From NCBI RefSeq assembly GCF_025950085.1, contig NZ_JAPDDS010000001.1, positions 1 through 64,000 on the forward strand: a stretch of 64,000 bases of DNA, in the 5' to 3' direction. The position numbers were made by a program, and so were the translations under genes. Position 1 is the stretch's first letter, and each line of letters begins with the position of its first letter. The notes under the pieces are model-generated. The model did no database searches, was not told the origin of the DNA, and saw only the letters and a program-made list of their open reading frames with translations. Below are positions 3,330 through 32,934 of the stretch, piece after piece. The DNA comes from Luteolibacter flavescens. GTDB lineage: Bacteria; Verrucomicrobiota; Verrucomicrobiia; Verrucomicrobiales; Akkermansiaceae.

Positions 3330-6300
3330 TCACGGATTTCGGCTTGGCGGGCTCAAATCGATCCTAAGCTCCGTGATAATTGCTGCACGCTCCGCCTCTG
3401 GAACCTCGGTCAAGAGGTAGGCGATGAGATCTTCCTGTCGGCTCTGACCCAACACCAGTCGATAAAGGGCGAGCGACTTTCGAAGCAAAGACAGGCGATC
3501 AACTTCTCGACTGAACGGAAGAGCAGGAACGTGCCGTTCAATCATGGCTTCACCTGGGTAGTGCCAATAGGGCACCAAATCATTGTCTCCGGCTCCCCGG
3601 CTGGACCGTGCTAAAGCGAAGAGATCATTCCACGCGTCCCCTTCATCCCTTGCCAGAGCTTCGAGGCCATGAGCCGAAGCAAGATTCTTTCGAATGGCAT
3701 GGCCCTTGTAGCGATGGACGCGGCCTTCGCGTTGCTCCAAGTCCACCGGATTCGCCGGAAGATTCCAATGGGTGATCGCGTGACAATAGTGATGAAAATC
3801 CAAGCCTTCTTGACCGACAGAGGTTGATACCAGGACGAAAGGCCAGAACGGCGAATTGAAGGCACCCCGGACTCGCTCTTTCCGTGTGCCGGAAGAGCCC
3901 ACAATTGGCGGGCCAAGTTCCTCGTTCCTTCTCTCATCACCGAAGCGCATGGCAAACCGTATCCGCATCGACTCATCCGACACTTTGACCTCGCGAGCAT
4001 ACTTTGGAGCATCGATCCGATCCACGCGAAGCGAAGCAACGCGGAGAGTCACCGACGCAATCAACTCGGCGGCAATTCCCTCCGCAACCTCGGCGCTGGA
4101 TGAAGACGAGCCTCCGAGCGATTCGCGAAGAACATGGGAGTATTCATCCAGGACCGCCTGAAGCTGACCTGCGTGGGAATACTCGAGAACCCGTCGCCAA
4201 TATGCGTATGCCTTGAATTCAGCCCGGACCATTTCGGTGACCTCGACGTGGTTGAAGAGTGTCAGAAAAGCCCTGCCAGCCTGTGCCGCGGAGATGCGGG
4301 TTCTCAAGCAGGCTCCGGGAGCGAGTTCGGTGACGCGGGCCAATGCCCGGAGCGCTGCAGTGGCAGGGCCGGCTGAGGCGATCAGTGCCAGAACCTTGAA
4401 GAGGTCAGGTGGAGGCGGGCCGAGCACCAGCCCGTCGTAGCGAATGCGCTCAACAGTTTCCTTCGCGTCCTGTACGTGCCGGGACCAACCGGCATCTTCC
4501 TCTGCCGATTCGGCGCCAGCCCAGCGTGAGGAGAGTTCCTCCAATTTCCACCACTCCCGGGATTGCTTCGGGAAGAACCGGAAATCCAAGAGCATCGGGA
4601 CAATCCAATACCAACGCTCGTCGGGATTGCCTGTAGTATCCGAGTCGATGGCTAGGCTCTCCACCAAGGTTTTCAGCCTGCTCTCGAAAACTTCGAGCAC
4701 CTCCAAAGCAGAGAAGTGTCCTGTACGCGCCAAATCCCGCGGGTCGAGCTCGCGGGCAAAAGTGATGCACGGATACACAAGCCCCATAAGAGGTAGGCCG
4801 GTCAATCGTCCGGCCGAGATTCCAAAGCGCAGCAAACCGCGCTTCTTTTGCAGGATCTCTGCGGTCAAGCTCCCCTTTGGCGAAGAGGAACGCATCATCC
4901 GTCTTTCCGCTTCATAGGACACCAGGGCCGAGACAGCTTTCGGCACCACATGCCAGGCGGAAAACACCAATCGTTTGGTCGCCCCCTGTAGGGCTGGGTC
5001 GGCATATGGTCCGGCGGGCTCGTAGTAGCTCAAGGAGGGTGGGAGCCAAAGCAGCCGCCACATGCCCCGGTCCACGGTTTCCGCCAAAAGGCCACGCAGG
5101 CGTGGATTTGATGGATCAACAGGCTTGTAGGACTGCATCTGATCGACCGGCAAAAAAGACTCCGGAAAACTCTGGATCAACCCGATAAGGTCGCGGTCTC
5201 CGGTTGTATCCTTGAACGCGGATTTCAACGCGTAGGTATCCATAAAATTGAAGAGGTAGGGAGCCGACTTCCAGTAATCGACGACGTCCCCTTCCTCCAA
5301 ATGTTCAGCGACCTTTTGGGCTCCCAGGAAGGCCCGCACGTCGTGAGACTTCAGTTGTAGTCCGGCCGACTCCCGCTCGTGGAACATCCCGGCACGGGTT
5401 GTACTGTTTGCAAGCTTCTCGGTCCGTGCCATGACCTTCCGCAGGCGTTCCTGGAGCTGATCCTTCGCTTTCTTGAGAGAGGCCAGTCCCTCAGGACAAC
5501 GCACAGAGGGCAGGGCGGAGCGGTAGTCCTCCAACACTGCGGAACAGTCCGGGCCAGAAGACCTCTCCAGAAAGCTGAGCAGCGTGGAAAACTCCGAGAA
5601 CTGATCGTCCTCTTGCTCGTGATGCAGGCTTAGGCTCTTGTAAGGTGTCGCGGAAAGGAGCAGCAGGCGGGCACCGTGGCCAGCTTCTGATTCGAACAAG
5701 GATTGCGCGAGCTCGCCTGCTTCGGAGCGATCGTTGAGGAGATGGTTGAATCTCTGGAACTCGTCAAAAATGATCAGGTCCGGTTCCAGCGCATTCAAAC
5801 ACACTCGCGCAAGTAGCCGGCGGAGGTTTCCGATCCAGCGGGTCCGGCGCACCGTGGCTTCCCGCCCGGGCGTTATGTCGTTCCGGTGAAAGGTCCGCAG
5901 CAGATCTTCAAAGCGTGTGCGCAAGTTCGGCACACCTCTGGCGGTCTCGTCAGCCACTTGCTGCGCAAGCTGCCGGATGAAGGCCTCGGCAAGAGGGCGG
6001 TTCACGCTCGTTCGGTCGAAAGACTTCAGCGCTTTCTCGAATGAAGTCACACTGGCGTAATCGCACAGCACGTTGAGCGGCCTTCGGGATCCCTTTAGGT
6101 TCCAAGCCTCATCCAGAAGCGAGTAGAGCAGCACACGTTCCGGAACCGTTCCGCCATAGTTGTTCTGATCGAAGGAAGTTCCCGGGGTAAGCGCGATGAA
6201 GTTCACGCGATTCTTCCGGAGATCTTGAAGTTGCAGAGGGAGAAGAGTGAGGCGGGTTGATTGGGTTGTTGCGTTGCATCCGGGGATGCCGAGTCGCTGA

Positions 6301-6557
6301 ACATTCTGCCTTGCGATGTCGGCGTTGGAGCAGACATAAATCACATCGATCCGTTCGACCGTCTCCCAGAGATGATCGATGGCCCGGGCAATCACGCCCC
6401 GCGCAACGAGCGTTTTTCCGAGCCCGACCTCATCGGCCACGAGGAATCGACGGGTCGGGTCTTCTCCATAGAACCGATCGAAAACGTACTCCACCGTCGA
6501 GCGTTGAAAGTCCTTCAACCCGGCGATGACGGATGCAGTGTCGGGACGCGGGCTCAT
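3330..6557 (-). CDS. SNF2-like superfamily 2 helicase of a PLD/DUF6361 system
   Basis: The product has 1075 residues from the ATG at 6557, which overlaps the PLD stop as ATGA; an upstream ATG at 6647 would add 30 residues with no family support. Visible motifs are Walker A ADEVGLGKT (41-49), DEFQ box (about 264), SAT motif LLLSATPYK (about 300), and C-terminal motifs STSVGQEGLDFH (about 914) and QREGRVHRYKG (about 945). The order fits a Snf2-type ATP-dependent DNA translocase with a long helical insert between the two RecA lobes. There is no nuclease domain in this chain; cleavage would come from the neighbouring PLD protein. The neighbours suggest a phage-defence or restriction role, but I cannot match the trio to a named system. 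Confidence 0.85.
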   Translation of the reverse strand: MSPRPDTASVIAGLKDFQRSTVEYVFDRFYGEDPTRRFLVADEVGLGKTLVARGVIARAIDHLWETVERIDVIYVCSNADIARQNVQRLGIPGCNATTQSTRLTLLPLQLQDLRKNRVNFIALTPGTSFDQNNYGGTVPERVLLYSLLDEAWNLKGSRRPLNVLCDYASVTSFEKALKSFDRTSVNRPLAEAFIRQLAQQVADETARGVPNLRTRFEDLLRTFHRNDITPGREATVRRTRWIGNLRRLLARVCLNALEPDLIIFDEFQRFNHLLNDRSEAGELAQSLFESEAGHGARLLLLSATPYKSLSLHHEQEDDQFSEFSTLLSFLERSSGPDCSAVLEDYRSALPSVRCPEGLASLKKAKDQLQERLRKVMARTEKLANSTTRAGMFHERESAGLQLKSHDVRAFLGAQKVAEHLEEGDVVDYWKSAPYLFNFMDTYALKSAFKDTTGDRDLIGLIQSFPESFLPVDQMQSYKPVDPSNPRLRGLLAETVDRGMWRLLWLPPSLSYYEPAGPYADPALQGATKRLVFSAWHVVPKAVSALVSYEAERRMMRSSSPKGSLTAEILQKKRGLLRFGISAGRLTGLPLMGLVYPCITFARELDPRDLARTGHFSALEVLEVFESRLKTLVESLAIDSDTTGNPDERWYWIVPMLLDFRFFPKQSREWWKLEELSSRWAGAESAEEDAGWSRHVQDAKETVERIRYDGLVLGPPPPDLFKVLALIASAGPATAALRALARVTELAPGACLRTRISAAQAGRAFLTLFNHVEVTEMVRAEFKAYAYWRRVLEYSHAGQLQAVLDEYSHVLRESLGGSSSSSAEVAEGIAAELIASVTLRVASLRVDRIDAPKYAREVKVSDESMRIRFAMRFGDERRNEELGPPIVGSSGTRKERVRGAFNSPFWPFVLVSTSVGQEGLDFHHYCHAITHWNLPANPVDLEQREGRVHRYKGHAIRKNLASAHGLEALARDEGDAWNDLFALARSSRGAGDNDLVPYWHYPGEAMIERHVPALPFSREVDRLSLLRKSLALYRLVLGQSRQEDLIAYLLTEVPEAERAAIITELRIDLSPPSRNP

Positions 6558-8419
6558 TTCTTGGCGATGGATTGCTTTGCGACTTCCCAAATAGGCTCCC
6601 AGATTGACTGGAATTCCGGACCTACGAGATCCGAGGACTTCCCGCATCGCTGCAATGTCTCCAGGAGCGAGGCTACTCTTTCCATTTGGGCCGGGCCGCG
6701 GTGTAGAGCACGCAACATGGTTTCCAGCAGACAGGGTGGAGTGATAGCGAGGTCAGCAGCATCTCCTGCACCTTGGAGCAAAGTCGCCAATTCTCCGGAG
6801 GCGGCGGCATCTCCATCTCCATCTCCAGCCGCCAGCAGGAACAGGATGTAACGCAGGAGCTGCTCCTTTCCCTGAAGTAGAGCGGCCACCACGCGGTCCT
6901 GTCGGTCTGCCGGAGCACCCTCGAGCGGGAGATTCAATACGAAGGACGATTCGCGCTTCTTCCCGGCGATCTCACATTGCAAGCAGATGGCCAGCAGTGG
7001 CGTTAGAGCTTCATGCGAAACTTCTCGAAACGCCATGTCAGGTTCGAATGGCTGTGCCCGCTCTTCAGGCAGTGTGATCGGCCAAGCTTTCACCCGCACT
7101 CGTACGTCGGCGATTGTCGGAAATTCGTTCCACTGGAGACGCATATTGAACAGCGCCGGTTGCCCGCCCGCTGAAACGATGATCCGCGGCCGTCCCTCGA
7201 TTACCTCGCGCTTGAGCAAGCGGAATAGGTCGTCAAATTCTTGCCTCAATGGATCGGTCGGCATGGGAACCTCATCCATGCCGTAAATCTGGAGGAGATC
7301 GGAGAAGCCAGTCACACCCTTCTCTCCAGCCAGAAAGCGGTCAACGCCGACCTTGCTCTTCTTTCCCACCATTTCGACCATGAACTCGACGTTGCGCTCG
7401 AGTGCGTGATTAGTGGCATTGAAGGAGCCGCTGAAGACGCTGGCAGACCAGCCGCGATCGATCACAAAAAGCTTCGCATGCAAACCTTCCAAGACTTCAT
7501 CGGGTTCCGGATTCCGGGGCTCTTCAATCGCTTCCTCGCTGAGCTGGGGTCGGAGGAAGTGGACACTTTTGCAGCCCTTCAGGGTATCCACGGGGATATC
7601 CTGAAGGCTTTCGGCCCGGGATACCAAGTGAGTCGCCCGGCCGCGCATTAGGAAGTCGCGAATCACTGAATCGGAAAGGAATGGCGATACGATCAGGCTT
7701 TGGTCGCGTTTTTCACCGAAGGGTGCGCTTCTCTTTCCAGACAGCCCCGAGGTCCAGAAGCGGCATTCGCTCGCATCGAATCCCTCCGGCCATTCGAAGC
7801 GAACCCGCAATAGTTCATCAGCCATGCGGTGCGCTGCTCTCCTGCGACCTGCAGCAAGCGGATGCACGCAGAGGTTGGGGAGCGCTTCGACGAACTCCGC
7901 CAGCGGCCGGTTGGCGGAGATGGCTCTGGTTCGATCGGTGAGTTCTCCGTCCAGCGCCACCACCGTATCCCAAGAGCGATCAAAGGTGAGATTTCGGCTT
8001 AAGCAGAGTACGCGGTACTTTACGGAATCATCCTCGTCCACGTAGCGGACCACCCAGACCTTTGGATGGAAGACTCCCCCCGGTTCCTCCGGCTGAACCT
8101 CGTGAATGCAGGGTTCAAGGAAGGTGACAAGAGGTGAGTATTTCGTGGGAAGTCTGATATTGCCCGCCTGACAAAAGACCGAGAAGCGGTCACCATTCAA
8201 TCGAAGCGCCTCCAGCAAGGCCAGGGGATCCGACAATTCCTCGTCTTGCCTCTCCCAATCGAAGAACACGAAGGAGAGTGGCAGCATCAGCGCGCTCATC
8301 AGATCGAGCGAGAAGGTCGTTCCTATGGCCCGGTCAAACCGACAACCAGCGGGTGGGCGCAAAAGCTCCATGAGGTGGGAGCGTGAGTCTGGCCTAAGCA
8401 TGGCTCGCCTCCAGTCCAT
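6554..8419 (-). CDS. Phospholipase D-fold protein, probable nuclease
   Basis: The product has 621 residues from ATG at 8419; an ATG at 8401 is equally possible. Two HKD-like motifs are visible. The first, near residue 118, is FHPKVWVVR followed by SRNLTFDRSWD. The second and more canonical, near residue 316, is LHAKLFVID followed by SGSFNATNHALERNVE. The double-HKD layout is that of PLD-superfamily hydrolases, which in restriction systems cut DNA without a metal. The 5' end overlaps the DUF6361 gene by 26 bases and the 3' end overlaps the helicase start by 4, so the three are translationally coupled. No signal peptide or membrane helix is visible. A cytoplasmic nuclease working with the helicase is the simplest reading. 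Confidence 0.8.
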   Translation of the reverse strand: MDWRRAMLRPDSRSHLMELLRPPAGCRFDRAIGTTFSLDLMSALMLPLSFVFFDWERQDEELSDPLALLEALRLNGDRFSVFCQAGNIRLPTKYSPLVTFLEPCIHEVQPEEPGGVFHPKVWVVRYVDEDDSVKYRVLCLSRNLTFDRSWDTVVALDGELTDRTRAISANRPLAEFVEALPNLCVHPLAAGRRRAAHRMADELLRVRFEWPEGFDASECRFWTSGLSGKRSAPFGEKRDQSLIVSPFLSDSVIRDFLMRGRATHLVSRAESLQDIPVDTLKGCKSVHFLRPQLSEEAIEEPRNPEPDEVLEGLHAKLFVIDRGWSASVFSGSFNATNHALERNVEFMVEMVGKKSKVGVDRFLAGEKGVTGFSDLLQIYGMDEVPMPTDPLRQEFDDLFRLLKREVIEGRPRIIVSAGGQPALFNMRLQWNEFPTIADVRVRVKAWPITLPEERAQPFEPDMAFREVSHEALTPLLAICLQCEIAGKKRESSFVLNLPLEGAPADRQDRVVAALLQGKEQLLRYILFLLAAGDGDGDAAASGELATLLQGAGDAADLAITPPCLLETMLRALHRGPAQMERVASLLETLQRCGKSSDLVGPEFQSIWEPIWEVAKQSIAKK

Positions 8420-9617
8420 TGAAGATATCCTTTAGAATCCGCCTGCTATTGACCCAGCGGAACTCCAGCTGCGCGGAGCCGGCCTCTCTATTCCACAACT
8501 CTCTTGCGCGCGGGTTATCAATCCGGGCAAGGCTCTTCTTCAACCGCCGTTCCCGCTCCCCAATGAGGGTGCGTGCGCTCTGCAGGGATGCCAGCTTGGC
8601 CGGCTGATGCTTCAGGACCAGATCCCACCAAGCATTGATGAAATCCCGTGCTCCAGGATGGATTCTCAGATTTCCGTGATGGGCCTGCTCCCAGAACAAG
8701 GTTCGATCCCATTCTTCGAAGGCAGCCATACGGGCCTGCACCTTTTGCGCCCATTCCTCCATCCGGTCTCGGTAGTCGTTGGTTCCCTCACTCCAATCCG
8801 ACTGCTCTGCCAGGATAAGGTTATAGAGAAGGGCGGCACCGTGCATGATTTCCGAGAAGACCTGTGCATGGTTCACCAAGTTCCGGTTCGCCAGCGAGAA
8901 GGAAGCGAAATCCGGGTGCTCCCAGACAAAGTCCACCTTGTTCACCTGTCGCGGATTGGCTGCGAGTTCTGCGAGCAGAGATCCCGCGCAAGGATGGCTT
9001 AGGCGAATCCTTTCTCGAAGATACTCTGCTTCCGCCCGCGAAAGACGGAGTGAACAAGTTCCCGGGAAATCCTTTGGTGGCTCAATCAGTCCGCCATGCC
9101 AATTCGATGCGGCAAGGTCGTCATGCTCCTGGTCTCGTTCTTCACTGCGGCGACCATGGCGGAGGCGAAGCGAGTAATGGCGATCAAGACTTCGCTGATA
9201 CTGGGCTAGCGAGCCGCGGAAGGTTCTGATGCCCCAAACGCCGAGGCCTTGCCAATAGACGCTGCTGGGAAGCCGCTTCAGGGCAGTCCGGGCATACTTG
9301 CCGATGTTGCCGTCCTTGTCTTCCGATCGTTCGATCGCCTCAATCAACTCCGTTTCAGCTTTGCGCCCGCGGGCGGCAATAGCTGCAGAACCAACCTTCT
9401 TTTCCTCCAGGTCATGGTAAGTCCAAGCCACCAAAAGGAAGTAGCGAGCACGGGTCATGATAGTGCTCGTCCCCGGGAAAAGCTGGTCTGCGAAGGAGTC
9501 GCGAACGGAGCCCAATCCCAGCTCGTCCCGGGTATCTCGCTCTTTGAAGAGATCGACGACTTCAAGCATCTTGCGCCGGTCTCGTTCGGAATAGTCGAGC
9601 CAAGTAAATAATGACAT
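8394..9617 (-). CDS. DUF6361 family protein
   Basis: The product has 407 residues. The start SLFTWLDYSERDRRKMLEVV and the following LFPGTSTIMTRARYFLLVAW are characteristic of the DUF6361 family, recognised by eye. The rest is helical and basic with no catalytic motif I can identify. The ATG at 9617 has an AAGG Shine-Dalgarno about seven bases upstream, so this is the first gene of the coupled DUF6361-PLD-helicase unit. A 195-base gap separates it from the end of the SEFIR/KAP gene and could hold its own promoter. The biochemical role of the family is unknown to me; recognition of foreign DNA or regulation of the other two proteins is a guess. Confidence 0.75.
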   Translation of the reverse strand: MSLFTWLDYSERDRRKMLEVVDLFKERDTRDELGLGSVRDSFADQLFPGTSTIMTRARYFLLVAWTYHDLEEKKVGSAAIAARGRKAETELIEAIERSEDKDGNIGKYARTALKRLPSSVYWQGLGVWGIRTFRGSLAQYQRSLDRHYSLRLRHGRRSEERDQEHDDLAASNWHGGLIEPPKDFPGTCSLRLSRAEAEYLRERIRLSHPCAGSLLAELAANPRQVNKVDFVWEHPDFASFSLANRNLVNHAQVFSEIMHGAALLYNLILAEQSDWSEGTNDYRDRMEEWAQKVQARMAAFEEWDRTLFWEQAHHGNLRIHPGARDFINAWWDLVLKHQPAKLASLQSARTLIGERERRLKKSLARIDNPRARELWNREAGSAQLEFRWVNSRRILKDIFNGLEASHA

Positions 9618-9812: not shown

Positions 9813-12800
9813 TCACCGGTCGCATGTCACCTGCCTGACAATGCGTTCGAGGTTCTCTGGAAGCCGGATCGCATCGACCTTTGCCTCGGGCAGAATACTT
9901 TTGATCAGGTGTGCGGCGATCCCCGAAACAATGGAGTCCTTCAGCGAGGTCCCCGGTTCTTGCTGGTGAATCAAAAGGCGCACCAGCTCGAAGCGGATCT
10001 TGATCATGAGCAGCGAGCGCGGCGTGAAATGAGAGCCGGGCACCTGTGACAAGACGCGCCGCAGGGCACGCGCTTCCAAATTCCGTGCGGTCTTTATGTC
10101 CTCGCTGCCAGGCATGGGCGGAGATACGTGCGCTGGCGAGGGCATCGCATCGGCCTTCTCTTCCCCCATCCCCGGAACAATTGCCCGCGGAGTGTCCCCG
10201 ACCATTTCTGATGATACCTCGCTTCGTCGCGGAATCTGAGCGAGCAGTTCCCGCGTCTCCTCCTTCACCTGCCGGAAAAGCTCCGCCTCATCTCGAGCGG
10301 AAGTCTCCAGTTCCTTCCCGTGCCTGTCCGCTCCTCGCACCTGAGCGAAGAGTTCCTGTGTGGTCTCCGCCACTTCCCGTGTGATTCCCGCCAGATTGCG
10401 CACGAGTTCTTCCGGATTCTTCGATGGCTCAGACGACCGCCCTGAATCCGGCTCATCCCGGGCCATCGTGCCGGGCTCGTGTGGTTCCTCTTCATCTTGA
10501 AGCGGAAAGAGAGAATCCAGCAATTGTTCCCGATGATCCTCCTGCAGCTCTGGCAGGGCGAACTCGCAAAGGAAGATCTTCTCTCGATGCGTCCGGCGGT
10601 ACCACCTGCCTTCTTCTTTGCCCTTCGCAAGAGGGCTCGATCTTGCTCGGCGGTCGAGCGCTTCGTGAAGCAGGTCCAGATCCATCAGCATTGCCATCTG
10701 AAGTCGGCCGCTCATCGCCGGATCATCGACAAAGAGCCGCAGGCACTCGATCACCGCCAACATCTGCTTATCGTCGCAGCGGTCCAGATCATCCACGGTC
10801 AGGAGCAGGGTCTGGAAGCGCTCCAGTGGCCGGGATGCCACGCGGAGGTAGAGGAGAAAGATCAAGCTTAGCGTCACCACCACAGCATAGCCTGCCCATG
10901 GATGCGAGGGTTTTACCGCAGGAGGCATTACCGGCAAAAGCGAGGCCGGGATCTGCGCCGCGACTTGCTTCAGGGCTGAGAGGTCCACTTGCCGGATACG
11001 CAGCGCTAGATCGCGTGCCTGCTGCAGATGCATTGCCAGCTCGCGCGCACGTGCCTGCTGCTCTTCGAACGAGTGAATCAACGGTAGCACCGGGCTCCAA
11101 TTCGCGGTGCCAGGCCACGGCGACGGCAAGAGCTGCGCTTCGGAATGGGGTGCCGGCAACTTCTCCGGAATTCTCCAGCGCTGTGGAGCGCCGTTGAAAT
11201 CGATCGAGGGGAGGATTTCCAACATTGCTGCGCGCCTAGCCAGCTCTTCCTCCAATTGCCGCCGGTCATCGGCTTCCTTCTCGGTCTGGAGCCGTGCCTC
11301 CTGCTCAGCCTTAGTCCTAGCGTCCTCCGCTGACTTCGCCTGCTGGTAGGCTGCCATCTTCCCAGAGTGGGCTTTGTCGATGGACCAGCATGCCGCCACC
11401 GCACTCACGATGACCAGTAATCTAACAGCAAGGCGCATCCACGATCCCAACTTCCCGGGGCGGAAGTCCACCCAATCAAGATCCGGATCCGCCTTTTCGC
11501 TCGCAGGCGTGATCCACAGCTGGAGCAGGCGCTTCAGGTCGCGCCCCACCACGGCCTGCAGGCCCAGCTTGTCCGCATACTCCGGCACCTTCAGATAACC
11601 GCGGGTCACCACGTATCCGATCTTCCAAGCCCGGAAGAGGAAGCCGAGGATCAGCAGAGCCCCCACCCAACCCGCGATGCTCCAGATGTGATGCATCCAC
11701 TCCCCAAGCGCCAGTCTCGCCACCACGAGCAACAGCACACCGGAAACCAGCGGCCACCACCCGCTCTCTAGCAGTCCACAGCGGAATGACAGCCGAAGTC
11801 GCTGCAGCCAACTATGATTCTCTGCCGCCTCACGGATCCGTTCGTAGAGATGCACCCATACCTCAGGCCGCGAGGGAAACCGCCACGCGCTGAAATCCAC
11901 CACCGCATAGGAAGGATGCGGCTCCGGATGACCGTGGAAGAATACCGACACGCTGCCGGGCCTCTTCAACTCGGTTTCGTCCTTCTTGGTATCCCCCGTA
12001 TCGTCACCCGTCTGGGAATTCAATTGTGCCGTCAGGCGGGGAATCTCTTTGTGGTCTTGCAAGAGCTCCGACACTTTCTTCATCAGTGTCGACTTGCCCC
12101 GGCCCCACTCGCCATACAGCGCGAAGATAAAATCGGTGGTTCTGGACTCCTGATCGGAGTTCTCCCGTGGCCGGCGGCCGGAGAGGAAGATCGTCGCGAT
12201 GCTTTCCGCAGTCCTGTCGATGTCTAGGCACAGCGCGTTGTAGCGGGACGGGCCAAGACCTTTTCCCAATGCCACTGCCGTTGAATCCTTGTCGCAGCCC
12301 GCCGATTCGAGCACGCTCTGCCAAGGGGTGTCGTGATCTTCGTCTTGCGAGGAAAGGTGCTCGATGAGGATGTCGCCCGCCTTTTCGGGATCGAAACCCA
12401 GCCGCTTCAGTTCTTCATGAATCCTCCTTCCCGCGGGGCTGGAGTTCAGGCTCAGGAATGCCGCGAGCAGATGTCGCGCGGCGATCCAGCTCCCCTCCCT
12501 GCGGCACTTGCCGGCGATGCGCGCCGCTTCCCTCCACAGTATCACGGCGGTCTCGCCCGCCTCCACCCCGCTCGGTTGCGGGTAGTGAGGCACCATGCGC
12601 GCCACCTCCACGCTACGCAGCTCGTCGAGATCATCCGCAGTGAGACCCAACTGCTCCACATACGAGGCCGGAAGGGAAATCTCGATGTCGCCGCTCTTCA
12701 CGAGCGGCTGCTCCGCAAGCCCCACCTCGATGAAAGCGATGTAGATCGATGACGCGGTGACCGTAGGGGATGACTTGGCCTCGTGAAGGCCCGCGCAATC

Positions 12801-14672
12801 CTCCCACGCGTTGTGACCGATCTTCCAACAGCAGGCGGAAGGAGTGAAGCCTTCTACGGATCGTAGAAAGTCCCTTACCCGAGCCGCATCTTCAGGGGTT
12901 AGTGTGAGATCCCGCGTCTCGACCGGCGAGATTCCGTCACGAGCTGCGCGGCGCATGCGAAAGAGGTGCTCCGGATCGAGCTTTTCTCGTTTCACGGGCT
13001 CCCGGCGGATGGCGAGGCCGGTCGGCGGGTTCGTGAGCAGCTCTCGCACGGCCTCGAATGTTTCAAGGCTCTCATTATTCCAGTCGATCCATGTGGCGAG
13101 TTCGCTCAGCACCTTCTGCCACTCCCCGGCTCGCTCCTGCGGGGCGATCTCCTGATAGACTACGTTTGCCAAAACCCAGAAAGCTTGGCCCGCATGGATG
13201 ACATCTCCTCTGCGCAGGATCATCGACCCGGCTAGCAAATCGCTCTCTCCGGGCTCGAGCATCGCCGCCAGGAGATGGTGACCACGAATCAATCCTTGAT
13301 CTCCCGCAACGACTTCGACCAATGCCTTGCAGCGTTCCGCCAGGTCGTGCAGCGATGGATCGATCTCTGACTCCATCGGTTCATCACGGGCAGGCGATGG
13401 CTCTCCTCCTCGGAAAAACTCCTCTGTGAGTAGTGCGTTGAAGTTTCTCCAGTCCGGCGTGACACCTGTAGATAGCAGGTTCCCGAAGACGTCATCCGGA
13501 GACTCCGAATCCGAACCAGCGGCCTTTTCGGCCGCATGGATCATGGCTGTGAGAAACAGAGCGCGCGGTGTGAGTTCTGCCCGGAAGCCTTTCATCGCTA
13601 TCCGTGATTCCCGGAGTGATCGGGCGGCGGCGCGGTGCCGTTCACGTAGGAGATGAATGATGTCGACAAGTTCGCTGCTCCACGGGAAATCGAGGCCATC
13701 GCGGAAGAGTATTACCTCGGGAGTGCGGGGCAGCGGCTCATCCCCCCCGGACAGCGCGTGAAGCAGCGCCGCTGTTACGATCTCCCGCAAGTCGCCTAGA
13801 GAACGGAAATGCCACGTCAGGAAGTCGGTCTTCCCGGCAGGCGACACTACGTCAGCCCTTATCGGACTGATGAATCCATCCTTTCTACCTCCGGTAATGG
13901 AAATCTCTTCCGGATGGAAAACAAGGATGTCCCTCAATGCCCCGGCCCGCTTCCTCGCCATGGCTCGTTCAAAGTCCACTTCGCGGAAGGGACCCTCGCC
14001 ACGTGGTCGCGGCACAAAAACTCCGATGAAGATGTCGGCATCGTCCACGATGTCTAAGGCCTCACGCGTGTCAGGCGAACTTCCGGAGCGGATGCGTCCG
14101 GTGAACACCGGGCGGACACGGGCGGCGTCACAAGCGTCCTGCACTACGATCCGGTAGTCCTCCCGCTCGATCAAATCACCTCCGATCGCTGCTGTTAGCA
14201 TCCCCGGTTCCTTGGGTGTGCGGACGTCAGTCCCCTTGATCCAGCTCACCAATTCAGCAAAGTCGTCATTCTCATGATACTGGCGGCGGCTTTCCAGCCA
14301 CGGCGTCACGTAATTGAGTTCGTCCGGATCGGAATAGACGATTCGGACGTCTTGGAAGCGGTGGGGCGCCCGCTCCTTCATCTCGTAAATCCGATCCACC
14401 GCATGAATCGTGATCCTTTCTGGATCCGGCTCTGCTGTCTCGGTGAAGGTCTCAAAACAATCCTTGGAGCCAATGATGAGAATCTTGTCAGCACGGTTGA
14501 TGTACTCAGACGTCCATGCTCGCCAATCAATCTTGGTCTCGCCCGATTCAACTTCGTGAAACTGGTCGAAGAACACCTCGATCCCATTTTTCCTCAGGCG
14601 TTTCGCCAGGCTTTGCACGCGATCATTCCGTGCGTCATCGGCTCGGCGGTAGGTGATGAAGGCACTCGGCAT
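9813..14672 (-). CDS. SEFIR / Clp-N-like / KAP-type P-loop NTPase multidomain protein
   Basis: This single chain has 1619 residues. Residues 1-150 (start PSAFITYRRADDARNDRVQS) match a SEFIR/TIR-like domain. Residues about 170-290 form a second Rossmann-like signalling domain of DUF4062 type (ADIFIGVFVPRPRGEGPFRE). Residues about 350-500 and 700-800 contain Clp-N-like helical repeats (LTPRALFLTAMIHAAEKA; IAARHLLAAFLSL). A KAP-type NTPase follows with Walker A GEWGRGKST near 857 and Walker B LLLTVDDLDRC near 1292. Membrane helices lie near 975-1025, 1087 and 1264, inserted within the NTPase region as is known for KAP proteins. The C-terminal tail is Glu/Pro-rich. SEFIR and TIR domains often cleave NAD or make signals, and KAP NTPases are membrane-associated defence ATPases. 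Combined, this suggests an abortive-infection sensor-effector; that function is inferred. Confidence 0.8.
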   Translation of the reverse strand: MPSAFITYRRADDARNDRVQSLAKRLRKNGIEVFFDQFHEVESGETKIDWRAWTSEYINRADKILIIGSKDCFETFTETAEPDPERITIHAVDRIYEMKERAPHRFQDVRIVYSDPDELNYVTPWLESRRQYHENDDFAELVSWIKGTDVRTPKEPGMLTAAIGGDLIEREDYRIVVQDACDAARVRPVFTGRIRSGSSPDTREALDIVDDADIFIGVFVPRPRGEGPFREVDFERAMARKRAGALRDILVFHPEEISITGGRKDGFISPIRADVVSPAGKTDFLTWHFRSLGDLREIVTAALLHALSGGDEPLPRTPEVILFRDGLDFPWSSELVDIIHLLRERHRAAARSLRESRIAMKGFRAELTPRALFLTAMIHAAEKAAGSDSESPDDVFGNLLSTGVTPDWRNFNALLTEEFFRGGEPSPARDEPMESEIDPSLHDLAERCKALVEVVAGDQGLIRGHHLLAAMLEPGESDLLAGSMILRRGDVIHAGQAFWVLANVVYQEIAPQERAGEWQKVLSELATWIDWNNESLETFEAVRELLTNPPTGLAIRREPVKREKLDPEHLFRMRRAARDGISPVETRDLTLTPEDAARVRDFLRSVEGFTPSACCWKIGHNAWEDCAGLHEAKSSPTVTASSIYIAFIEVGLAEQPLVKSGDIEISLPASYVEQLGLTADDLDELRSVEVARMVPHYPQPSGVEAGETAVILWREAARIAGKCRREGSWIAARHLLAAFLSLNSSPAGRRIHEELKRLGFDPEKAGDILIEHLSSQDEDHDTPWQSVLESAGCDKDSTAVALGKGLGPSRYNALCLDIDRTAESIATIFLSGRRPRENSDQESRTTDFIFALYGEWGRGKSTLMKKVSELLQDHKEIPRLTAQLNSQTGDDTGDTKKDETELKRPGSVSVFFHGHPEPHPSYAVVDFSAWRFPSRPEVWVHLYERIREAAENHSWLQRLRLSFRCGLLESGWWPLVSGVLLLVVARLALGEWMHHIWSIAGWVGALLILGFLFRAWKIGYVVTRGYLKVPEYADKLGLQAVVGRDLKRLLQLWITPASEKADPDLDWVDFRPGKLGSWMRLAVRLLVIVSAVAACWSIDKAHSGKMAAYQQAKSAEDARTKAEQEARLQTEKEADDRRQLEEELARRAAMLEILPSIDFNGAPQRWRIPEKLPAPHSEAQLLPSPWPGTANWSPVLPLIHSFEEQQARARELAMHLQQARDLALRIRQVDLSALKQVAAQIPASLLPVMPPAVKPSHPWAGYAVVVTLSLIFLLYLRVASRPLERFQTLLLTVDDLDRCDDKQMLAVIECLRLFVDDPAMSGRLQMAMLMDLDLLHEALDRRARSSPLAKGKEEGRWYRRTHREKIFLCEFALPELQEDHREQLLDSLFPLQDEEEPHEPGTMARDEPDSGRSSEPSKNPEELVRNLAGITREVAETTQELFAQVRGADRHGKELETSARDEAELFRQVKEETRELLAQIPRRSEVSSEMVGDTPRAIVPGMGEEKADAMPSPAHVSPPMPGSEDIKTARNLEARALRRVLSQVPGSHFTPRSLLMIKIRFELVRLLIHQQEPGTSLKDSIVSGIAAHLIKSILPEAKVDAIRLPENLERIVRQVTCDR

Positions 14673-15241: not shown

Positions 15242-15946
15242 TCACGAAAATTCGGTTTTTTCCAACCTCACCTTCAACGTCCGCCAGTTCGGCAAGAGCA
15301 CCGACAATTGCCTGAAGAACGCTTTGTCGTGCGCCGGATGCTTGAGGTGGCAGATCTCGTGAACGATCACGTAGTCGATGCAAGGACCCGGAGTGTGGAT
15401 GAGCTCGGGATTCAGCGCGATTCTCCCGTCCGCGCTCGCGCTGCCCCAGCGCTTCGGCATCTGGCGGAGCTGAAGCCTGGGTTCAGGCAGGCGTCGCTTG
15501 CGGCACCAGTCCGCCCACGATGCGACGCGCTTCTGAAATTGTTCCTTCGCACGGACGCGGAACCAGCTCTTCAAGGCCGCCTCCACTTCGGCAGCCTCGG
15601 CGTTCGGCGTGGCGATTTGGAAGAAGCCGCCCTTCAAAATTACGCTCGTGGATTCGCCCATGGTCACCTTCAGCCGGTACTGCCGGCCGAGGTAGCGATG
15701 CGTTGCGCCCGAAACGTAGCGTCGGGGCGGCGGGGCGATGTTCATCTCGCGAAAGGCGCGGCGCTGGGTGGCGATCCAGCGGGAACGCTTCTCAACCTTC
15801 GCGAGGATCGCGTCCTCCGCGGCGTCCTCCGGGGCGGCGAGTTCCAGCGAGCCATCGGGCAGCACGCTGATCGCCAGCGTCCGTCGCCGGCTGCGCCTGA
15901 GAACGGCGGGGCCTGCCGGCGTTTCGAGTGTCTGGATTTCAGACAT
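15242..15946 (-). CDS. M48/YgjP-like (DUF45) metallopeptidase
   Basis: The product has 234 residues. The zinc motif HEICHLKHPAHDKAFF near the C terminus, with WASADGRIALNPELIH-type sequence before it (SASADGRIALNPELI), is characteristic of the YgjP/SprT-like DUF45 peptidases. This gene is very often found directly after hsdR in type I restriction operons. Its start overlaps the hsdR stop by eight bases, so it is the last gene of the operon. The exact substrate in this setting is unknown. Housekeeping proteolysis or processing of the restriction subunit are possibilities, and the sequence does not choose between them. Confidence 0.85.
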   Translation of the reverse strand: MSEIQTLETPAGPAVLRRSRRRTLAISVLPDGSLELAAPEDAAEDAILAKVEKRSRWIATQRRAFREMNIAPPPRRYVSGATHRYLGRQYRLKVTMGESTSVILKGGFFQIATPNAEAAEVEAALKSWFRVRAKEQFQKRVASWADWCRKRRLPEPRLQLRQMPKRWGSASADGRIALNPELIHTPGPCIDYVIVHEICHLKHPAHDKAFFRQLSVLLPNWRTLKVRLEKTEFS

Positions 15947-18900
15947 CGTCGGATCGATGGATGGCGATGGTAATGACCGCCTCGATGATGGCGTCCATCT
16001 GCTCGTAGCTCATCGGGATGCCCTTTTCCTTCTGCAGTCGGAAGAGGAAATCATCCAGGTCGTTCCGCATCCGGTTCTGAGCGTCCACGTTTTCGCGCCA
16101 GCGCACCACGGCGTGCTTGCGGATGATGTCCTCCATGTCGCAGGCCGCGCCGGCGAGCACTTGCTCGATGGGATCCGGTGGCGCCGGCCGGGAGACACGG
16201 TATTCAACCGGATCCTCGCGCAAGACGGAGGACGACGGCGAATCCGCGCGGGCACCCGGGTTCATCTTCTCCTTCAGCGCGCCGAAGAGGGCGCGGGACA
16301 GGTCCCGCTCCTTGAGGATGTCCGGGGCTTCCTGGGACTTGCCGTCGCGGATCTGCTCCATGATCTCGGTCACGCGCTTCAGGTATTCGGCATCGGTGAT
16401 TCGCTGCGCCTTGTAGTCGTCGATCGCCTGCTGGAGCAGCGCGGAGAACTTCCGGTAGAAGAAGGGATCCTCGTCCATCTTCTCGGTGATCGTCTTCTTG
16501 GTCCGGTTGGCGATCGTGTCGGCCTTCGCCCGCGGGCTCTGCGCCCGGTCGACTTCCGCCTGGAAGGCTTCCCGCTCGAAGATGTTCACCGGCTCCACGA
16601 TTTGGAGGATCTCGTCCGCCTGGACGTAGGTGTTCAGCATCTTCTGGATCTGCTTCTCGTAGTCGCGGTAGTCGATCTCCTCGGCGTAGCGCAGCTTCAC
16701 GCTGGCCCGCAGCTTCTGGAAAAAGGCGGCATCCTGCTTGTAGCGCTCCACCTTGTCCCGCGGCGTGTCGGAGATCCAGCGGATGCTGGAAAGCGCCATC
16801 TTCAGCACGCGGGAGAAACGCGAGAGCCGGGTGTAGAAATCGTCGCGGACGTCCTTCGCCTCCAAGGCCAGCTCGAAGGCTTCCTCGTCCTTCTTGTTCG
16901 GAACCGCCTTGAAGAGATCCCACACGAGGTCGTGATAGCCGGGCAGCTTCTTCAGCTCCTCCGTGAGGTCGGTGAGGGTACCCTCCAGATCCTCGGCATC
17001 GAACTTCCCGTCCAGGCTGCCGTAAAGCTCCAGCGCGTCGTGGAGCTGGGTGACCACGCCGTAGTAGTCGATGATGTAGCCGTAGTCCTTGCCCGGATGG
17101 AGGCGGTTCACGCGGGCGATCGCCTGCAGCAGGTTGTGCTCCTTCAGACCGCGGGCAATGTAGAGGACCACGTTGCGCGGTGCGTCGAAGCCGGTCAGCA
17201 GCTTGTCCACCACGATCAGGATCTCCGGCTCCTCGCCCTTCTTGAAGGCGTCGATAATGCGGCGGTTGTATTCTTTCTCGCTGCCATACTTGGCCATCAT
17301 CGCCTTCCAGAACAGCTCCACGCTCTCGTCCTGCTCCGGCTGCCGGTGCTCCTCCGGGTTCTCTATCTCGCCGAGGCCGGAAATGATCACCTCGCTGGTG
17401 ACCTTGCCGAATTGGTCGAGGAAGCTCTTCAGAAGCAGCGCCTCCTTCTTGCCCGGCGCGGTGAGCTGGCCCTTGAAGCCGGTGCCCGACCACTGCTTGG
17501 AAAAGTGCTGCGAGACATCCCAGGCGATCAGGTAAAGCCGGCTGTGCAGGCGGTTCAGTTCGTCGCGGGCGGCGAACTTCCGCTTCAGGTCCGCTTTCTG
17601 TTCCTTGGTCAGGCCCTCGCACATGGCTTCGAACATCGGGTCGATCGCCTTGCGATTCACCTCCTGCATCACGTGGCGGCCCTCGTAGAGCAGCGGCACC
17701 ACCGCCTCGTCTTCCACTGCGTCGCGGATCGTGTAGGCGGGATCGATGAAGCCGCCGAATTTCTTCGCCGTGCTCTTCTCCTCCTTCATCAGCGGCGTGC
17801 CGGTGAAGCCGATGTAGCAGGACTTCGGCAGCGCCTTTTGCATCAGGATGTTCGCCTCGCCGTAGTGGCTGCGGTGGCTTTCATCCACCAGCACGAAGAG
17901 GTTCTCGTCCTCGATCGTGAAGCTCTTCGACTCCTTCGCCGCGGCGCCGAATTTCTGGATCAGGGTGGTGATCACTCCGGCCCGGTCGTCCTTCAGGAGC
18001 TGGATCAGGTGGGCGCCGGTCTTCGCCTGCTGCGGTTCCTTGCCGCATTGGTGAAAGGTCTTCCAGATCTGCTCGTCCAGGTCGATGCGGTCGGTCACGA
18101 TCACCACCCGCGCGTTCGGGATGCCCTTCTCCAGCGCTAGCGCCTTGCCGAGCAGCACCATGGCCAATGACTTGCCGGAGCCCTGCGTCTGCCAGATCAC
18201 GCCGCCCTTGCGGCGGCCCAGCGGATCCCGCTGGCGCACGCGCTCCAGCGTGCTGCGGATCGCGAAATACTGCTGGTAGCGGGCGATCTTCTTCACCGCG
18301 CCGCCCTCGTCGTAGATGATGAACTGGCGGGCCAGCTCGATCAGCCGCTCCGGCCGGCACAGCGACCACAACAGGAGATCCTGACCGGTCGGCTCGCGGC
18401 CGTGCATCGCCTGCTCCTCGATCTCCTCCTTGGCGAAGGCGAAGAGGCCCTTGAAGAGCTTCGCGTGCTCGTCCGGCCGCAAGGGCAGGTTCACCGCGGA
18501 GCGGACCGAGTCGCGGACCTCGTGCATCTCCCGCCACTTCGCCCAGAACTTCAGCGGCGTGCCGGTGGTCGCGTAGCTGCCGTCGTTCTTGTTCAGCGCG
18601 ATGAGAAGCTGGCTGTGGATGAAAAGCTGCGGGATCTCGTCCTCCTGCTGGTTACGCAGGTTCTGCTTCACCGCTTCCTCCAGCGAATGCTTCACGTCCG
18701 GCCGCTTGCACTCGATCACCACGAAGGGGATGCCATTGACGAAGCACACGATGTCCGGCCGCCGCGTCTCGTGGCTGCCGGTTCGCTCCACATCATACTC
18801 CGCGGTGACATGAAAGGTGTTGTTCCACGGGTTCTCCCAATCGATGTAGCGCAGGGTGAAGCCCTTGGTCTCGCCATCGATCGTCTGGTCCAGGCTCTTG

Positions 18901-19205
18901 CCCAGCGTCAACAGGTCGTAGACCTTCTCGCTGGTGCGGACCAGGCCCTCGAAGGGGAGATCGCGCAGCGCCTCGATTGCCTTGGCGATGTTCTCCTGGC
19001 TGAAAGGTACCTCTTTGCCCTTGAAGGAAACCCGGTTCAGTCGCTGGAGCTGGCGGGCCAAGGTGTCTTCCAGCAGCACCCGGCCGAGTCGGCCGCGACG
19101 TTCGACCGCGACTTCTTCCGGGCTCAGATAGCCGTAGCCGAGCTGTTGGAGAAGACGCAGCGCCGGGATTTGGCTGATAGGAGCTTCTTTGAAGTCGGGG
19201 GTCAT
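15939..19205 (-). CDS. hsdR: Type I restriction enzyme, R subunit
   Basis: The product has 1088 residues from the ATG at 19205, which overlaps the upstream stop as ATGA; a longer TTG start at 19271 is less likely. The nuclease motif appears as VVIECKRPD near residue 165. The helicase part has QGSGKSLAM near 342, VDESHRSHYG near 440, GFTGTPL near 465 and LLTGFDAPRN near 670, followed by a helical C terminus that binds the M2S core. It translocates DNA with ATP and cuts unmodified DNA. It sits three genes away from hsdS, with SIR2-like, Fic and AlbA_2 genes inserted between. Length and motif order indicate an intact subunit. Confidence 0.95.
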   Translation of the reverse strand: MTPDFKEAPISQIPALRLLQQLGYGYLSPEEVAVERRGRLGRVLLEDTLARQLQRLNRVSFKGKEVPFSQENIAKAIEALRDLPFEGLVRTSEKVYDLLTLGKSLDQTIDGETKGFTLRYIDWENPWNNTFHVTAEYDVERTGSHETRRPDIVCFVNGIPFVVIECKRPDVKHSLEEAVKQNLRNQQEDEIPQLFIHSQLLIALNKNDGSYATTGTPLKFWAKWREMHEVRDSVRSAVNLPLRPDEHAKLFKGLFAFAKEEIEEQAMHGREPTGQDLLLWSLCRPERLIELARQFIIYDEGGAVKKIARYQQYFAIRSTLERVRQRDPLGRRKGGVIWQTQGSGKSLAMVLLGKALALEKGIPNARVVIVTDRIDLDEQIWKTFHQCGKEPQQAKTGAHLIQLLKDDRAGVITTLIQKFGAAAKESKSFTIEDENLFVLVDESHRSHYGEANILMQKALPKSCYIGFTGTPLMKEEKSTAKKFGGFIDPAYTIRDAVEDEAVVPLLYEGRHVMQEVNRKAIDPMFEAMCEGLTKEQKADLKRKFAARDELNRLHSRLYLIAWDVSQHFSKQWSGTGFKGQLTAPGKKEALLLKSFLDQFGKVTSEVIISGLGEIENPEEHRQPEQDESVELFWKAMMAKYGSEKEYNRRIIDAFKKGEEPEILIVVDKLLTGFDAPRNVVLYIARGLKEHNLLQAIARVNRLHPGKDYGYIIDYYGVVTQLHDALELYGSLDGKFDAEDLEGTLTDLTEELKKLPGYHDLVWDLFKAVPNKKDEEAFELALEAKDVRDDFYTRLSRFSRVLKMALSSIRWISDTPRDKVERYKQDAAFFQKLRASVKLRYAEEIDYRDYEKQIQKMLNTYVQADEILQIVEPVNIFEREAFQAEVDRAQSPRAKADTIANRTKKTITEKMDEDPFFYRKFSALLQQAIDDYKAQRITDAEYLKRVTEIMEQIRDGKSQEAPDILKERDLSRALFGALKEKMNPGARADSPSSSVLREDPVEYRVSRPAPPDPIEQVLAGAACDMEDIIRKHAVVRWRENVDAQNRMRNDLDDFLFRLQKEKGIPMSYEQMDAIIEAVITIAIHRSDDV

Positions 19206-20407
19206 TGGTGAGGATGCCACCTCCCTTCTTCGTTGTAGTTGATGGAGCCAGCTCTGCCGCAGGCGTTCCAAACTTGATCGAACAAAGGACGAAGGAGAAT
19301 GTCGGCGGGTTGATCGGGCGTTTCGATGAGAACCTCTTCGGTAAGGAGGTGGTCGCGATTGATCGCCGCATGATCATAGTGAACGGAGTGCGACGGTGAG
19401 ACATACATCCAGAATCCTCGGACATTGAGGAGACTCAGGCTCAATGAATACGGCAGGGGAATGCCAATTGAGGCCAAAGCTTCCAGGTAACCGGGCAACG
19501 CCTCCATAAGCTTCTGCTCCCACGCGATGGAAGGAATGATCTTTGGCTTCGGGCTACCTTCTTTCCATTGTCGCGGTTCCAGCAACTGGGTTTCGACGAC
19601 CTCGATAAACCCCTTCCTGAACAATTGGACGTAGGACGTCGTTTTGCCTTCGTGATTCGAGGCTTTCACCACGAGCCCGTCAAAATTGAACGCCGGCCCC
19701 CAACCCGAACAGTTCATTGGCTTGAGGCGAAAGTTCTGATCTGCCTTGCGAAGCTCCTCCGTATGGAGACGTCCTTCCCTCCGGAATCCATCGAGGGGAA
19801 GGATATGGAGCGCAAGCATGTGGGATCCGGCTAACTCGACTGGAGCTTCACCGCTTGCCAGGCGGTTGATCCGATCCAAACGGAATGCCCTGAGGCGTTC
19901 GGCATAGGTTTCTCCAGCATTGAACGCCAGTCGGAGCTCATGAACATCCAGGTCATACTTGCCATTCGAGTTTCGACCGCAGAATCGACTGATCCCGCTG
20001 TGCTTCACCATGTGGGGTGCCGAAAAGCTCCGGGGGATTCGAATGATCAACACATGCTTGCCCGAGATAAGGGGTACCGACCTCACCCGTGTGCCCACGA
20101 TGCGAGGTTGCACGAAGTCCCTAAGCAAGTTCTCAACTTTTCCGGCTGCGTCGTCAGGATTAAGATTATTCAGTCCAACAAGCTCACCAGCCACGCCATC
20201 GGCTTCAGAGATTCCGAAAATCAGATCTCCGCCGTCGGTATTGGCGAACGCCGTCAGGTCGCTAAGAAACTCCCTCTTCTGTTCATCGGTTGCGAACTGA
20301 AGGGTCTGCTTATACTCGATGTTTTTGCTTTCCGGAATGCGATCCTCGACGAGGCGTTGCAGATCGCTTTCGGAAACTGCATCTAGGGAAAGGTGAATGA
20401 GGGACAT
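19202..20407 (-). CDS. AlbA_2/Schlafen-type putative DNA-binding or RNase-like protein
   Basis: The product has 401 residues from the ATG at 20407; a GTG at 20470 overlapping the Fic gene is an alternative. Residues about 12-60 (ESKNIEYKQTLQF, LTAFANTDGGDLIFGI) match the AlbA_2 domain, related to the Schlafen core. Proteins with this domain occur in restriction and toxin operons and have been linked to nucleic-acid binding, and Schlafens to tRNA/RNA cleavage. The C-terminal 250 residues show no motif I know. The stop is coupled to hsdR by ATGA, so synthesis is tied to the restriction subunit. Confidence 0.75.
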   Translation of the reverse strand: MSLIHLSLDAVSESDLQRLVEDRIPESKNIEYKQTLQFATDEQKREFLSDLTAFANTDGGDLIFGISEADGVAGELVGLNNLNPDDAAGKVENLLRDFVQPRIVGTRVRSVPLISGKHVLIIRIPRSFSAPHMVKHSGISRFCGRNSNGKYDLDVHELRLAFNAGETYAERLRAFRLDRINRLASGEAPVELAGSHMLALHILPLDGFRREGRLHTEELRKADQNFRLKPMNCSGWGPAFNFDGLVVKASNHEGKTTSYVQLFRKGFIEVVETQLLEPRQWKEGSPKPKIIPSIAWEQKLMEALPGYLEALASIGIPLPYSLSLSLLNVRGFWMYVSPSHSVHYDHAAINRDHLLTEEVLIETPDQPADILLRPLFDQVWNACGRAGSINYNEEGRWHPHQ

Positions 20408-20445
20408 GGCGCGGTCGGAGATCAGGGGGGCGATTTCGTGCTGGG

Positions 20446-21207
20446 CTAGTCGGTCGAAATTCCGTTCCACGGCAGGCTGAGTGCATGGAAGTAGGGCTGG
20501 AAGCTGTCTCGCACGATGTCGCTCACGATCCCCAGAAACGGTTCGCGGTTCCCGCGCACGTGATCCTCATCCAAGGACCGGTAATACTCCAAGCGCCGCT
20601 CCACCGGCAGCACGGCGGCGGGATAGCCGGCCTTCATCAGTTCCAGGTTCATCAGCAACCGCGAGGTGCGGCCATTGCCATCGACGAAGGGATGGATCTT
20701 CACGAAGTCACTGTGAACGCGCGCGGCGCGCTCGACCGGGTGAAGGCTGCCCGCCTCGTCGCGATACCACGTGATGAAGCGTTCCATCAGCTCCGGAACC
20801 ACGAGCTGGTCCGGCGGCAAATGCTCGGCACCGGAAATGCGGACGTTCACCGTCCGGTAGCGGCCGGCGTTGTCGTCATTGATGCCTTTCAGGATGAGCT
20901 GGTGCAGCGACTTGATCGTCCACTCGCTCAGCGGCTCGTTCTTCGCGATCCCTTCTTCCAACAGCAAAATGGCGTCGCGGTGATTCACGGCTTCCAAGTG
21001 CTCCCGCAAGGTATGGCCGCCGATGGTGATGCCCTCCAGCGCCACCTTCGTCTCGCGCAAGGTCAGCGTGTTGCCCTCGATCGCGTTCGAGTGGTAGGTC
21101 CAGCGGACGATCAGGTCTTCCCGCAGGTTGGCAACGATCGCCGGGGCAAGCGGGCGATGCTGGTCGAGAGCTGCTTTGAGTCGGTCAATGGTAGTGAAAG
21201 CGTCCAT
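20446..21207 (-). CDS. Fic family protein, class II (AMPylator-like)
   Basis: The product has 253 residues. The active-site motif HPFVDGNGRTSR is complete near residues 169-180, so NMP transfer (usually AMPylation) to a target protein is expected. An N-terminal inhibitory-helix motif of the (S/T)xxxE(G/N) type is present as SNAIEG near residue 40, marking a class II enzyme kept silent until the helix moves. It lies between the SIR2-like and AlbA_2 genes in the hsd operon, with a 12-base gap upstream. Fic proteins within hsd operons are a recurring arrangement; target and trigger are unknown. Confidence 0.9.
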   Translation of the reverse strand: MDAFTTIDRLKAALDQHRPLAPAIVANLREDLIVRWTYHSNAIEGNTLTLRETKVALEGITIGGHTLREHLEAVNHRDAILLLEEGIAKNEPLSEWTIKSLHQLILKGINDDNAGRYRTVNVRISGAEHLPPDQLVVPELMERFITWYRDEAGSLHPVERAARVHSDFVKIHPFVDGNGRTSRLLMNLELMKAGYPAAVLPVERRLEYYRSLDEDHVRGNREPFLGIVSDIVRDSFQPYFHALSLPWNGISTD

Positions 21208-21219
21208 GAGATTGGGGGA

Positions 21220-32795: not shown

Positions 32796-32909
32796 CCGAT
32801 CGGACCGTCGAAAACCCTCTCGGAGTTCCTCGAATCCGGAAAGTGAACCACGGCCTGAATCGATTTGAGAGATTGCGTCTGGGATTTAGGAAAGAGGAGT
32901 ACAAAGCGG

Positions 32910-32934
32910 CGCCCCTCCCGATTAGAGAGGGGCG
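32910..32934. terminator. GC-rich stem-loop between recombinase and tRNA-Ser
   Basis: The arms CGCCCCTC and GAGGGGCG form an 8-bp perfect stem with a 9-base loop. There is no clean T-run on the plus strand. On the minus strand the sequence after the stem is CCGCTTTGTACT, a weak T-tract, so the hairpin could terminate tRNA-Ser transcription as well as the convergent recombinase transcript. Confidence 0.45.

Follow-up and report, generated by a model that had tools for sequence, protein, structure and literature searches.

What function can be expected of a single bacterial protein in which a SEFIR domain, a DUF4062-like domain, a Clp-N-like repeat pair and a KAP NTPase with membrane segments follow one another from the N-terminus to the C-terminus? 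Such a protein is encoded by Luteolibacter flavescens within the first 64,000 nucleotides of contig NZ_JAPDDS010000001.1 (hereafter, the window). An earlier note on this DNA had described a five-part chain containing two Clp-N-like regions, and had proposed an anti-phage protein with the SEFIR part acting as the effector through NAD loss and with the Clp-N repeats as possible sensors of unfolded or phage proteins. The present analysis indicates that the architecture is real and unusual, and that it is built from known immune modules. The protein probably has a role in defence, judging by its domains and neighbours, and the explanation that we favour, tentatively, is a stand-alone membrane KAP immune protein, similar in kind to Tmn, whose tandem TIR-family domains would bind or assemble instead of cutting NAD.

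Gene and general architecture

The single chain was confirmed, with the gene located on the minus strand; the plus strand across the same interval contains many stops. The GC content at the first, second and third codon positions is 0.66, 0.45 and 0.70, respectively, and the second position has the lowest GC content in all nine tested segments of the gene; because of this pattern, the frame can be taken for a single coding gene as opposed to one left open by chance. A search of the genome with the 1619-residue protein found one match only, the protein itself. The features of the gene and its surroundings are listed in Table 1.

Table 1. Features of the gene and of its neighbourhood in the window
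Feature	Coordinates	Strand	Basis
Whole gene, 1619 codons and stop (ATG at 14672, stop at 9813)	9813..14672	-	
SEFIR domain, residues 4–142	14247..14663	-	Pfam PF08357, 2.3e-8; PADLOC bSEFIR
Ala91 codon	14400..14402	-	alignment
DUF4062-like (TIR/NDT-fold) domain, about residues 154–308	13749..14213	-	BLASTP, fold matches
Asp233 codon	13974..13976	-	alignment
Clp-N-like helical repeat pair, about residues 588–773	12354..12911	-	profile–profile comparison with shuffle controls
First part of the KAP NTPase, containing Walker A, residues 845–954 (GEWGRGKS from 854)	11811..12140	-	Pfam and motif
Hydrophobic segments 1 and 2, residues 967–993 and 995–1016	11625..11774	-	hydropathy
Hydrophobic segment 3, residues 1075–1099	11376..11450	-	hydropathy
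Hydrophobic segment 4, residues 1258–1282	10827..10901	-	hydropathy
Walker B region, LLLTVDDLDRC, residues 1289–1299	10776..10808	-	motif
ZacA (DUF6361), next gene downstream	8394..9617	-	PADLOC 9.6e-131; PF19888
ZacB (PLD-like)	6554..8419	-	PADLOC 3.8e-173
ZacC (helicase-like)	3330..6647	-	PADLOC E 0, 1105.6 bits
Type I restriction-modification cluster upstream of the gene (hsdR...hsdS-hsdM, enclosing Schlafen-AlbA_2 and Fic genes)	15939..25477	-	PADLOC and Pfam
Serine recombinase (31002–32795, +) beside tRNA-Ser (33000–33090, -)	31002..33090		probable island edge

Two TIR-superfamily domains with replaced glutamates

The SEFIR/TIR-like start proposed in the earlier note is a SEFIR domain by the Pfam measure, PF08357 matching it with 34.9 bits against a gathering score of 23. 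The relatives used for the alignments of this domain and of the next one were chosen by SEFIR or DUF4062 searches within one bacterial order. The SEFIR glutamate that follows the glycine-rich turn, which we take to be catalytic by analogy with TIR domains, is present in 26 of the 27 aligned relatives (25 of the rows being distinct, since two pairs are duplicates), and the query has Ala91 at this position. The sole relative lacking the glutamate is a row whose frame stops one residue further on, and the alignment of the query with its closest SEFIR relative is gap-free around Ala91. The PADLOC model bSEFIR (PDLC03957) also recognises the N-terminal SEFIR domain (E 7.5e-10), only over profile positions 39–103 of 412; unlike in bSEFIR, most of the profile is unmatched, the glutamate is replaced and a KAP NTPase follows.

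The second domain was likewise upheld. BLASTP searches related it to DUF4062 proteins (5e-11 and 1.5e-9), Pfam PF13271 gave only 13.2 bits, and the predicted structure of residues 140–819 (mean pLDDT 51.0), confident solely in the DUF4062-like part, yielded matches of that part to TIR/NDT-type folds; fold and homology together place the domain in DUF4062. Of the 21 distinct DUF4062 stretches matched, 20 extend to the site, and all 20 retain the second glutamate of the TExE-type motif and the threonine three residues before it; the glutamate is found in 11/11 of the best-scoring distinct places. The query has Asp233 and Arg230 at these positions, and the RYG motif is missing.

According to PMC13174449, DUF4062 is a TIR-like NADase family active in abortive infection, and the Swarozyc defence of Klebsiella pneumoniae requires E97. 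The invariant glutamate column would correspond to this E97 of KpSwz, so that the place of the Swarozyc-type active-site glutamate would be taken by Asp233. The query resembles Swarozyc in having a DUF4062-type fold and in lying near defence genes, and it differs from it in the replacement of the glutamate and the threonine and in the missing RYG motif; Swarozyc has a portal-binding auxiliary domain, whereas the DUF4062-like domain of the query is fused to SEFIR and KAP.

The main rival explanation takes these likenesses further: one or both TIR-superfamily domains would still hydrolyse NAD+, e.g., via Asp233 or a nearby glutamate, and would be released by KAP assembly, leading to abortive infection as in Swarozyc and TIR systems. 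The family background and the fold matches of the DUF4062-like domain are in line with this, as are the acidic residues E231, D233 and E235 at the site; the exchange of glutamate for aspartate is a mild change, and some activity could remain. One case of TIR-like toxicity without the glutamate, TirD, is reported in PMC13142454. Against residual NADase activity stand both replaced columns, Ala91 in the SEFIR domain and Asp233 with Arg230 in the DUF4062-like domain, as well as the lost RYG motif, and we consider the persistence of NAD hydrolysis unlikely. Since Ala91 and Asp233 replace conserved glutamates, the reading of either domain as a standard NADase is weakened; the replacements argue, short of proof, that neither domain is one, and NADase activity would presumably be absent from the tandem. 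As both candidate catalytic sites look lost, the earlier idea of a SEFIR effector has to be changed.

Clp-N-like repeats and the membrane KAP NTPase

Residues 588–773 were compared with a Clp-N profile together with two relatives, P0001 (1069 aa, Brevifollis gellanilyticus, NZ_BKAG01000030.1, locus L024) and P0002 (989 aa, genome G024, locus L025), with which the query shares this region. The comparison scored 31.1, the best of 150 column shuffles reaching 8.06 and the reversed profile 2.09, and the region resembles the two-repeat N domain of ClpC/ClpB. The similarity is a remote one, because Pfam Clp_N (PF02861) itself does not match at E up to 1, and a search within the query genome yielded no match even at E up to 10. 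The five-part order of the earlier note is thereby reduced by one: SEFIR, DUF4062-like, one Clp-N-like region of two repeats and KAP were recovered, and the first Clp-N region, placed at residues 350–560, found no support in the profile–profile comparison, where only residues 588–773 matched the two-repeat profile. A finer single-repeat test, run without shuffle control, gave −0.4 bits near residues 462–477 and 0.2 bits near 727–763.

The KAP NTPase is recognised by PF07693 (3.7e-15; 56.4 bits against a gathering score of 20), and both Walker motifs as well as those of the KAP subfamily are intact. Walker B residue D1294 is situated 434 residues past K860 of Walker A, in good agreement with the distance of about 435 residues noticed earlier, and four hydrophobic segments above the hydropathy threshold lie between the two motifs, as expected for inserted membrane segments. 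The 158 residues between the third and fourth segments (1100–1257) are largely gapped in P0001 and P0002, where this stretch is much shorter. Since the C-terminal model (residues 610–1619) is poor, with a mean pLDDT of 39.9 that allows no fold claim for KAP or Clp-N, the membrane arrangement is drawn from hydropathy; the even number of crossings would leave both Walker motifs in the cytoplasm.

Assignment to named KAP families was tried as well. QatA was rejected (17.5 bits against 600 with the NCBIfam model; 17.4 bits over 29 residues with the PADLOC model), as was PifA, for which PADLOC gave no match to the query at E up to 0.01. The PADLOC scan listed no Tmn entry for the query. The PADLOC matches of QatA and PDC-S20 in the KAP part are short and weak, and the KAP-type models PifA, QatA and PDC-S20 also match four of the five other KAP-bearing proteins scanned; because of this, such matches say only that a protein has a KAP domain.

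Genomic setting

The gene is followed on the same strand, 195 bp downstream, by zacA, and then by zacB and zacC. The YgjP, Schlafen-AlbA_2 and Fic genes are located between or beside the hsd genes of the upstream restriction-modification cluster (window positions 15242–21207, minus strand). A 513-aa gene without a Pfam match lies between hsdS and the Fic gene (21220–22761, minus strand); its PADLOC SIR2 matches are weak and confined to the C-terminal part (6.5e-4). Between the 1619-codon gene and the restriction-modification cluster, positions 14931–15086 of the plus strand encode a transposase fragment of 51 codons (HTH_Tnp_1, 1e-10). Near the recombinase, within the island, a gene at 27785–29092 (plus strand), resembling an orphan methylase, encodes an N6_N4 DNA methylase that is joined to a ParB_N domain.

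In 2-kb bins, the GC content is 0.55–0.63 over window bases 1–34,000 and 0.58–0.67 beyond them, 13 of the 15 bins beyond 34,000 having a GC content of 0.62 or more, and the tRNA-Ser and the serine recombinase are situated at this step. The third-position GC of the query gene (0.70) and of zacABC (0.64–0.65) groups apart from that of hsdR (0.89) and hsdM (0.88), which suggests separate origins for the block of the query gene with zacABC and for the hsd block. A repeat of the tRNA end that would mark the other island end was not found within the 64-kb window, and one further near-copy of the tRNA end is present on another contig of the genome. The window starts at a contig end, where three near-identical repeats with a spacing of 24 bp (positions 3–77, plus strand) possibly represent a repetitive gene cut there.

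Taken as a whole, the region looks like a mobile defence island. A defence role for the protein is likely because of zacABC on the same strand, the type I restriction-modification cluster and the lower-GC DNA ending at tRNA-Ser and the recombinase; the anti-phage reading of the earlier note thus gains support from context, and the make-up of the protein is in keeping with the modules SEFIR, DUF4062 and KAP being known to serve in defence. The protein is not a component of Zac itself, since in none of the six other Zac loci fetched does a related gene adjoin zacA, two of these loci ending within about 1 kb of zacA at a contig end (a seventh match, in genome G260, is a broken fragment and was left out of the six). 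Nothing on the Zac system was found among the matches listed in the open-licence literature.

The target of defence may be different: a membrane KAP exclusion protein of the PifA kind, or related to QatA-type KAPs, would act against plasmids or other mobile DNA and not against phages. The weak QatA and PDC-S20 matches lean in this direction, P0001 and P0002 weakly match PDC-S20, QatA and PifA too, and the island itself looks mobile; the lack of discrimination of these models among KAP proteins speaks against it, and we regard this explanation as quite improbable.

Proposed mode of action and comparison with known systems

The domains, the intact Walker motifs, the replaced glutamates and the defence-gene setting were computed directly; for the defence function, its trigger and its membrane output, we infer the following course. 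The favoured stand-alone KAP immune protein would be a single-gene protein directed against phages or other mobile DNA and anchored in the inner membrane through the KAP NTPase. Its SEFIR and DUF4062-like tandem would bind a partner, a nucleotide-type ligand or its own copies, with no cutting of NAD; the Clp-N-like repeats would then bind a triggering protein or serve as the link between the N-terminus and the NTPase; finally, NTP binding or hydrolysis by KAP would switch or assemble the membrane part, so that the membrane is disturbed or the cell arrested. In a more specific form, which we consider rather unlikely to hold in all its parts, the protein would be a membrane KAP immune receptor in which Clp-N reads a protein trigger and the two TIR-superfamily domains, both catalytically dead, sense a ligand or provide a platform for assembly. 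If true, such a receptor would correspond, in bacteria, to TIR signalling of the adaptor type, its output being at the membrane and not a loss of NAD. The protein offers a clean test of whether TIR-superfamily domains with a replaced glutamate can signal enzyme-free in bacteria, and also of whether killing or arrest is the work of the KAP membrane part itself.

KAP NTPases serve several named defence systems. Tmn, according to a 2025 paper (PMC11846954), belongs to the KAP NTPases, has two unusual transmembrane domains and inhibits several phages; its precise mechanism is stated there to be unexplored. The query shares the KAP P-loop NTPase with Tmn, PifA and QatA and, going by this description, membrane segments with Tmn; it differs from them in its SEFIR, DUF4062 and Clp-N parts, none of which was found in the named KAP systems, and in its four hydrophobic segments, the third and fourth of which are separated by 158 residues. 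ClpN repeats are reported in PMC7159879 from predicted NTP-dependent conflict systems, fused there to a vWA domain, whereas in the query they are joined to KAP; neither of the words SEFIR and DUF4062 occurs in the text of PMC7159879. According to PMC10907252, some conflict proteins that are hypermutated have a KAP NTPase in place of a STAND NTPase.

Relatives and distribution

Whole-genome searches covered a sample of genomes and scored a few top candidates in each, and for this reason an absence is not proof. Within this scope, the protein was matched in 1 of 19 genomes of near relatives, the query genome itself, and any match at all was found in 15 of 288 genomes of the order Verrucomicrobiales, the whole chain being present only in the genome of the window. 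SEFIR was found at 26 places in 23 of the 288 order genomes, as well as in 7 of 278 genomes of the phylum, and KAP in 60 of the 288; reading the places listed for each side by side, SEFIR and KAP occur in one chain only in the window frame among the matches listed. The order SEFIR-DUF4062-ClpN-KAP thus seems to be rare, and with lower confidence we regard it as seen only here in the sampled sets. The remark that no described system has this full order held across the sampled genomes and the open-licence literature, where nothing was found that combines SEFIR with KAP, or with KAP, NTPase and Clp together; by title, the open-licence SEFIR papers since 2020 among the matches listed deal with IL-17, immune disease and animal receptors.

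The ClpN-KAP core, in contrast to the whole chain, is shared: P0001 has 34% and P0002 30% identity to the query over this part, and all three proteins have the motifs RPEVWVHLY and DKLGLQAV in common. The core stretch of residues 915–1079 was matched only in genomes G044, G024 and G111 and in the window among the 288 order genomes, the KAP part in G111 being present in a fragment on a contig, and a core profile matched 4 of 387 phylum genomes, including that of the window, two of the four weakly. SEFIR and DUF4062 gave no match in P0001, P0002 or the G111 fragment at E up to 1. Since P0001 and P0002, both of Verrucomicrobiales, have the core but lack the tandem, the N-terminus may be exchangeable on a conserved ClpN-KAP part, and the data suggest an exchange of DUF4062 and SEFIR modules between NTPase cores. 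A plasmid tblastn search with the query gave no match; in a viral sequence scan with an alignment profile (A1), none of the 99 pattern stretches was a relative. A contig collection yielded no relative among 12 stretches with the single protein and one among 42 with profile A1, the Brevifollis record.

Rarity can also be read as a sign of decay: a SEFIR-DUF4062 segment would have recombined onto a ClpN-KAP protein, leaving a chimeric gene that is now functionless, with the residue losses as its trace. The restriction of the full order to this locus in the sets searched, the transposase fragment just upstream and the replacement of both catalytic positions agree with such a history; the 1619 codons without a stop, the gene-like codon GC in every tested segment and the intactness of both Walker motifs and of the KAP-subfamily motifs speak against it, making functional decay an improbable explanation. 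Clp-N repeats are classical chaperone parts, and the neighbourhood of P0001 is unremarkable by eye, with no defence genes recognised in the surrounding 19 kb of Brevifollis; a housekeeping or stress membrane NTPase with no tie to mobile elements is nevertheless very improbable given the patchy occurrence in 15 of 288 order genomes and the position of the window copy among zacABC and restriction-modification genes.

For the favoured membrane KAP immune protein, an independent hint that SEFIR and KAP work together, seen once, comes from G258, a genome of the same family, where a KAP gene (884 aa) and a SEFIR gene adjoin on the same strand, 5 bases apart (locus L152, 2–3825, minus strand). The SEFIR of this locus keeps the conserved glutamate.

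Several other arrangements were noticed in the course of the survey. P0002 is adjoined by an FRG-domain gene (L025, 12308–13858, minus strand) that matches the PADLOC candidate family PDC-S15 (1.3e-24), and two recombinase-like genes were seen by eye near this locus. A KAP protein of 1136 aa (L155, 4667–8074, minus strand) has first 60 residues that by eye resemble the start of a trypsin-like protease, Pfam giving KAP and AAA parts only. By eye, the chains at L091 (642–7028) and L092 (6035–9199, plus strand) are WD40-GTPase proteins, two of which hold SEFIR near the C-terminus, representing another SEFIR arrangement in Verrucomicrobiales.
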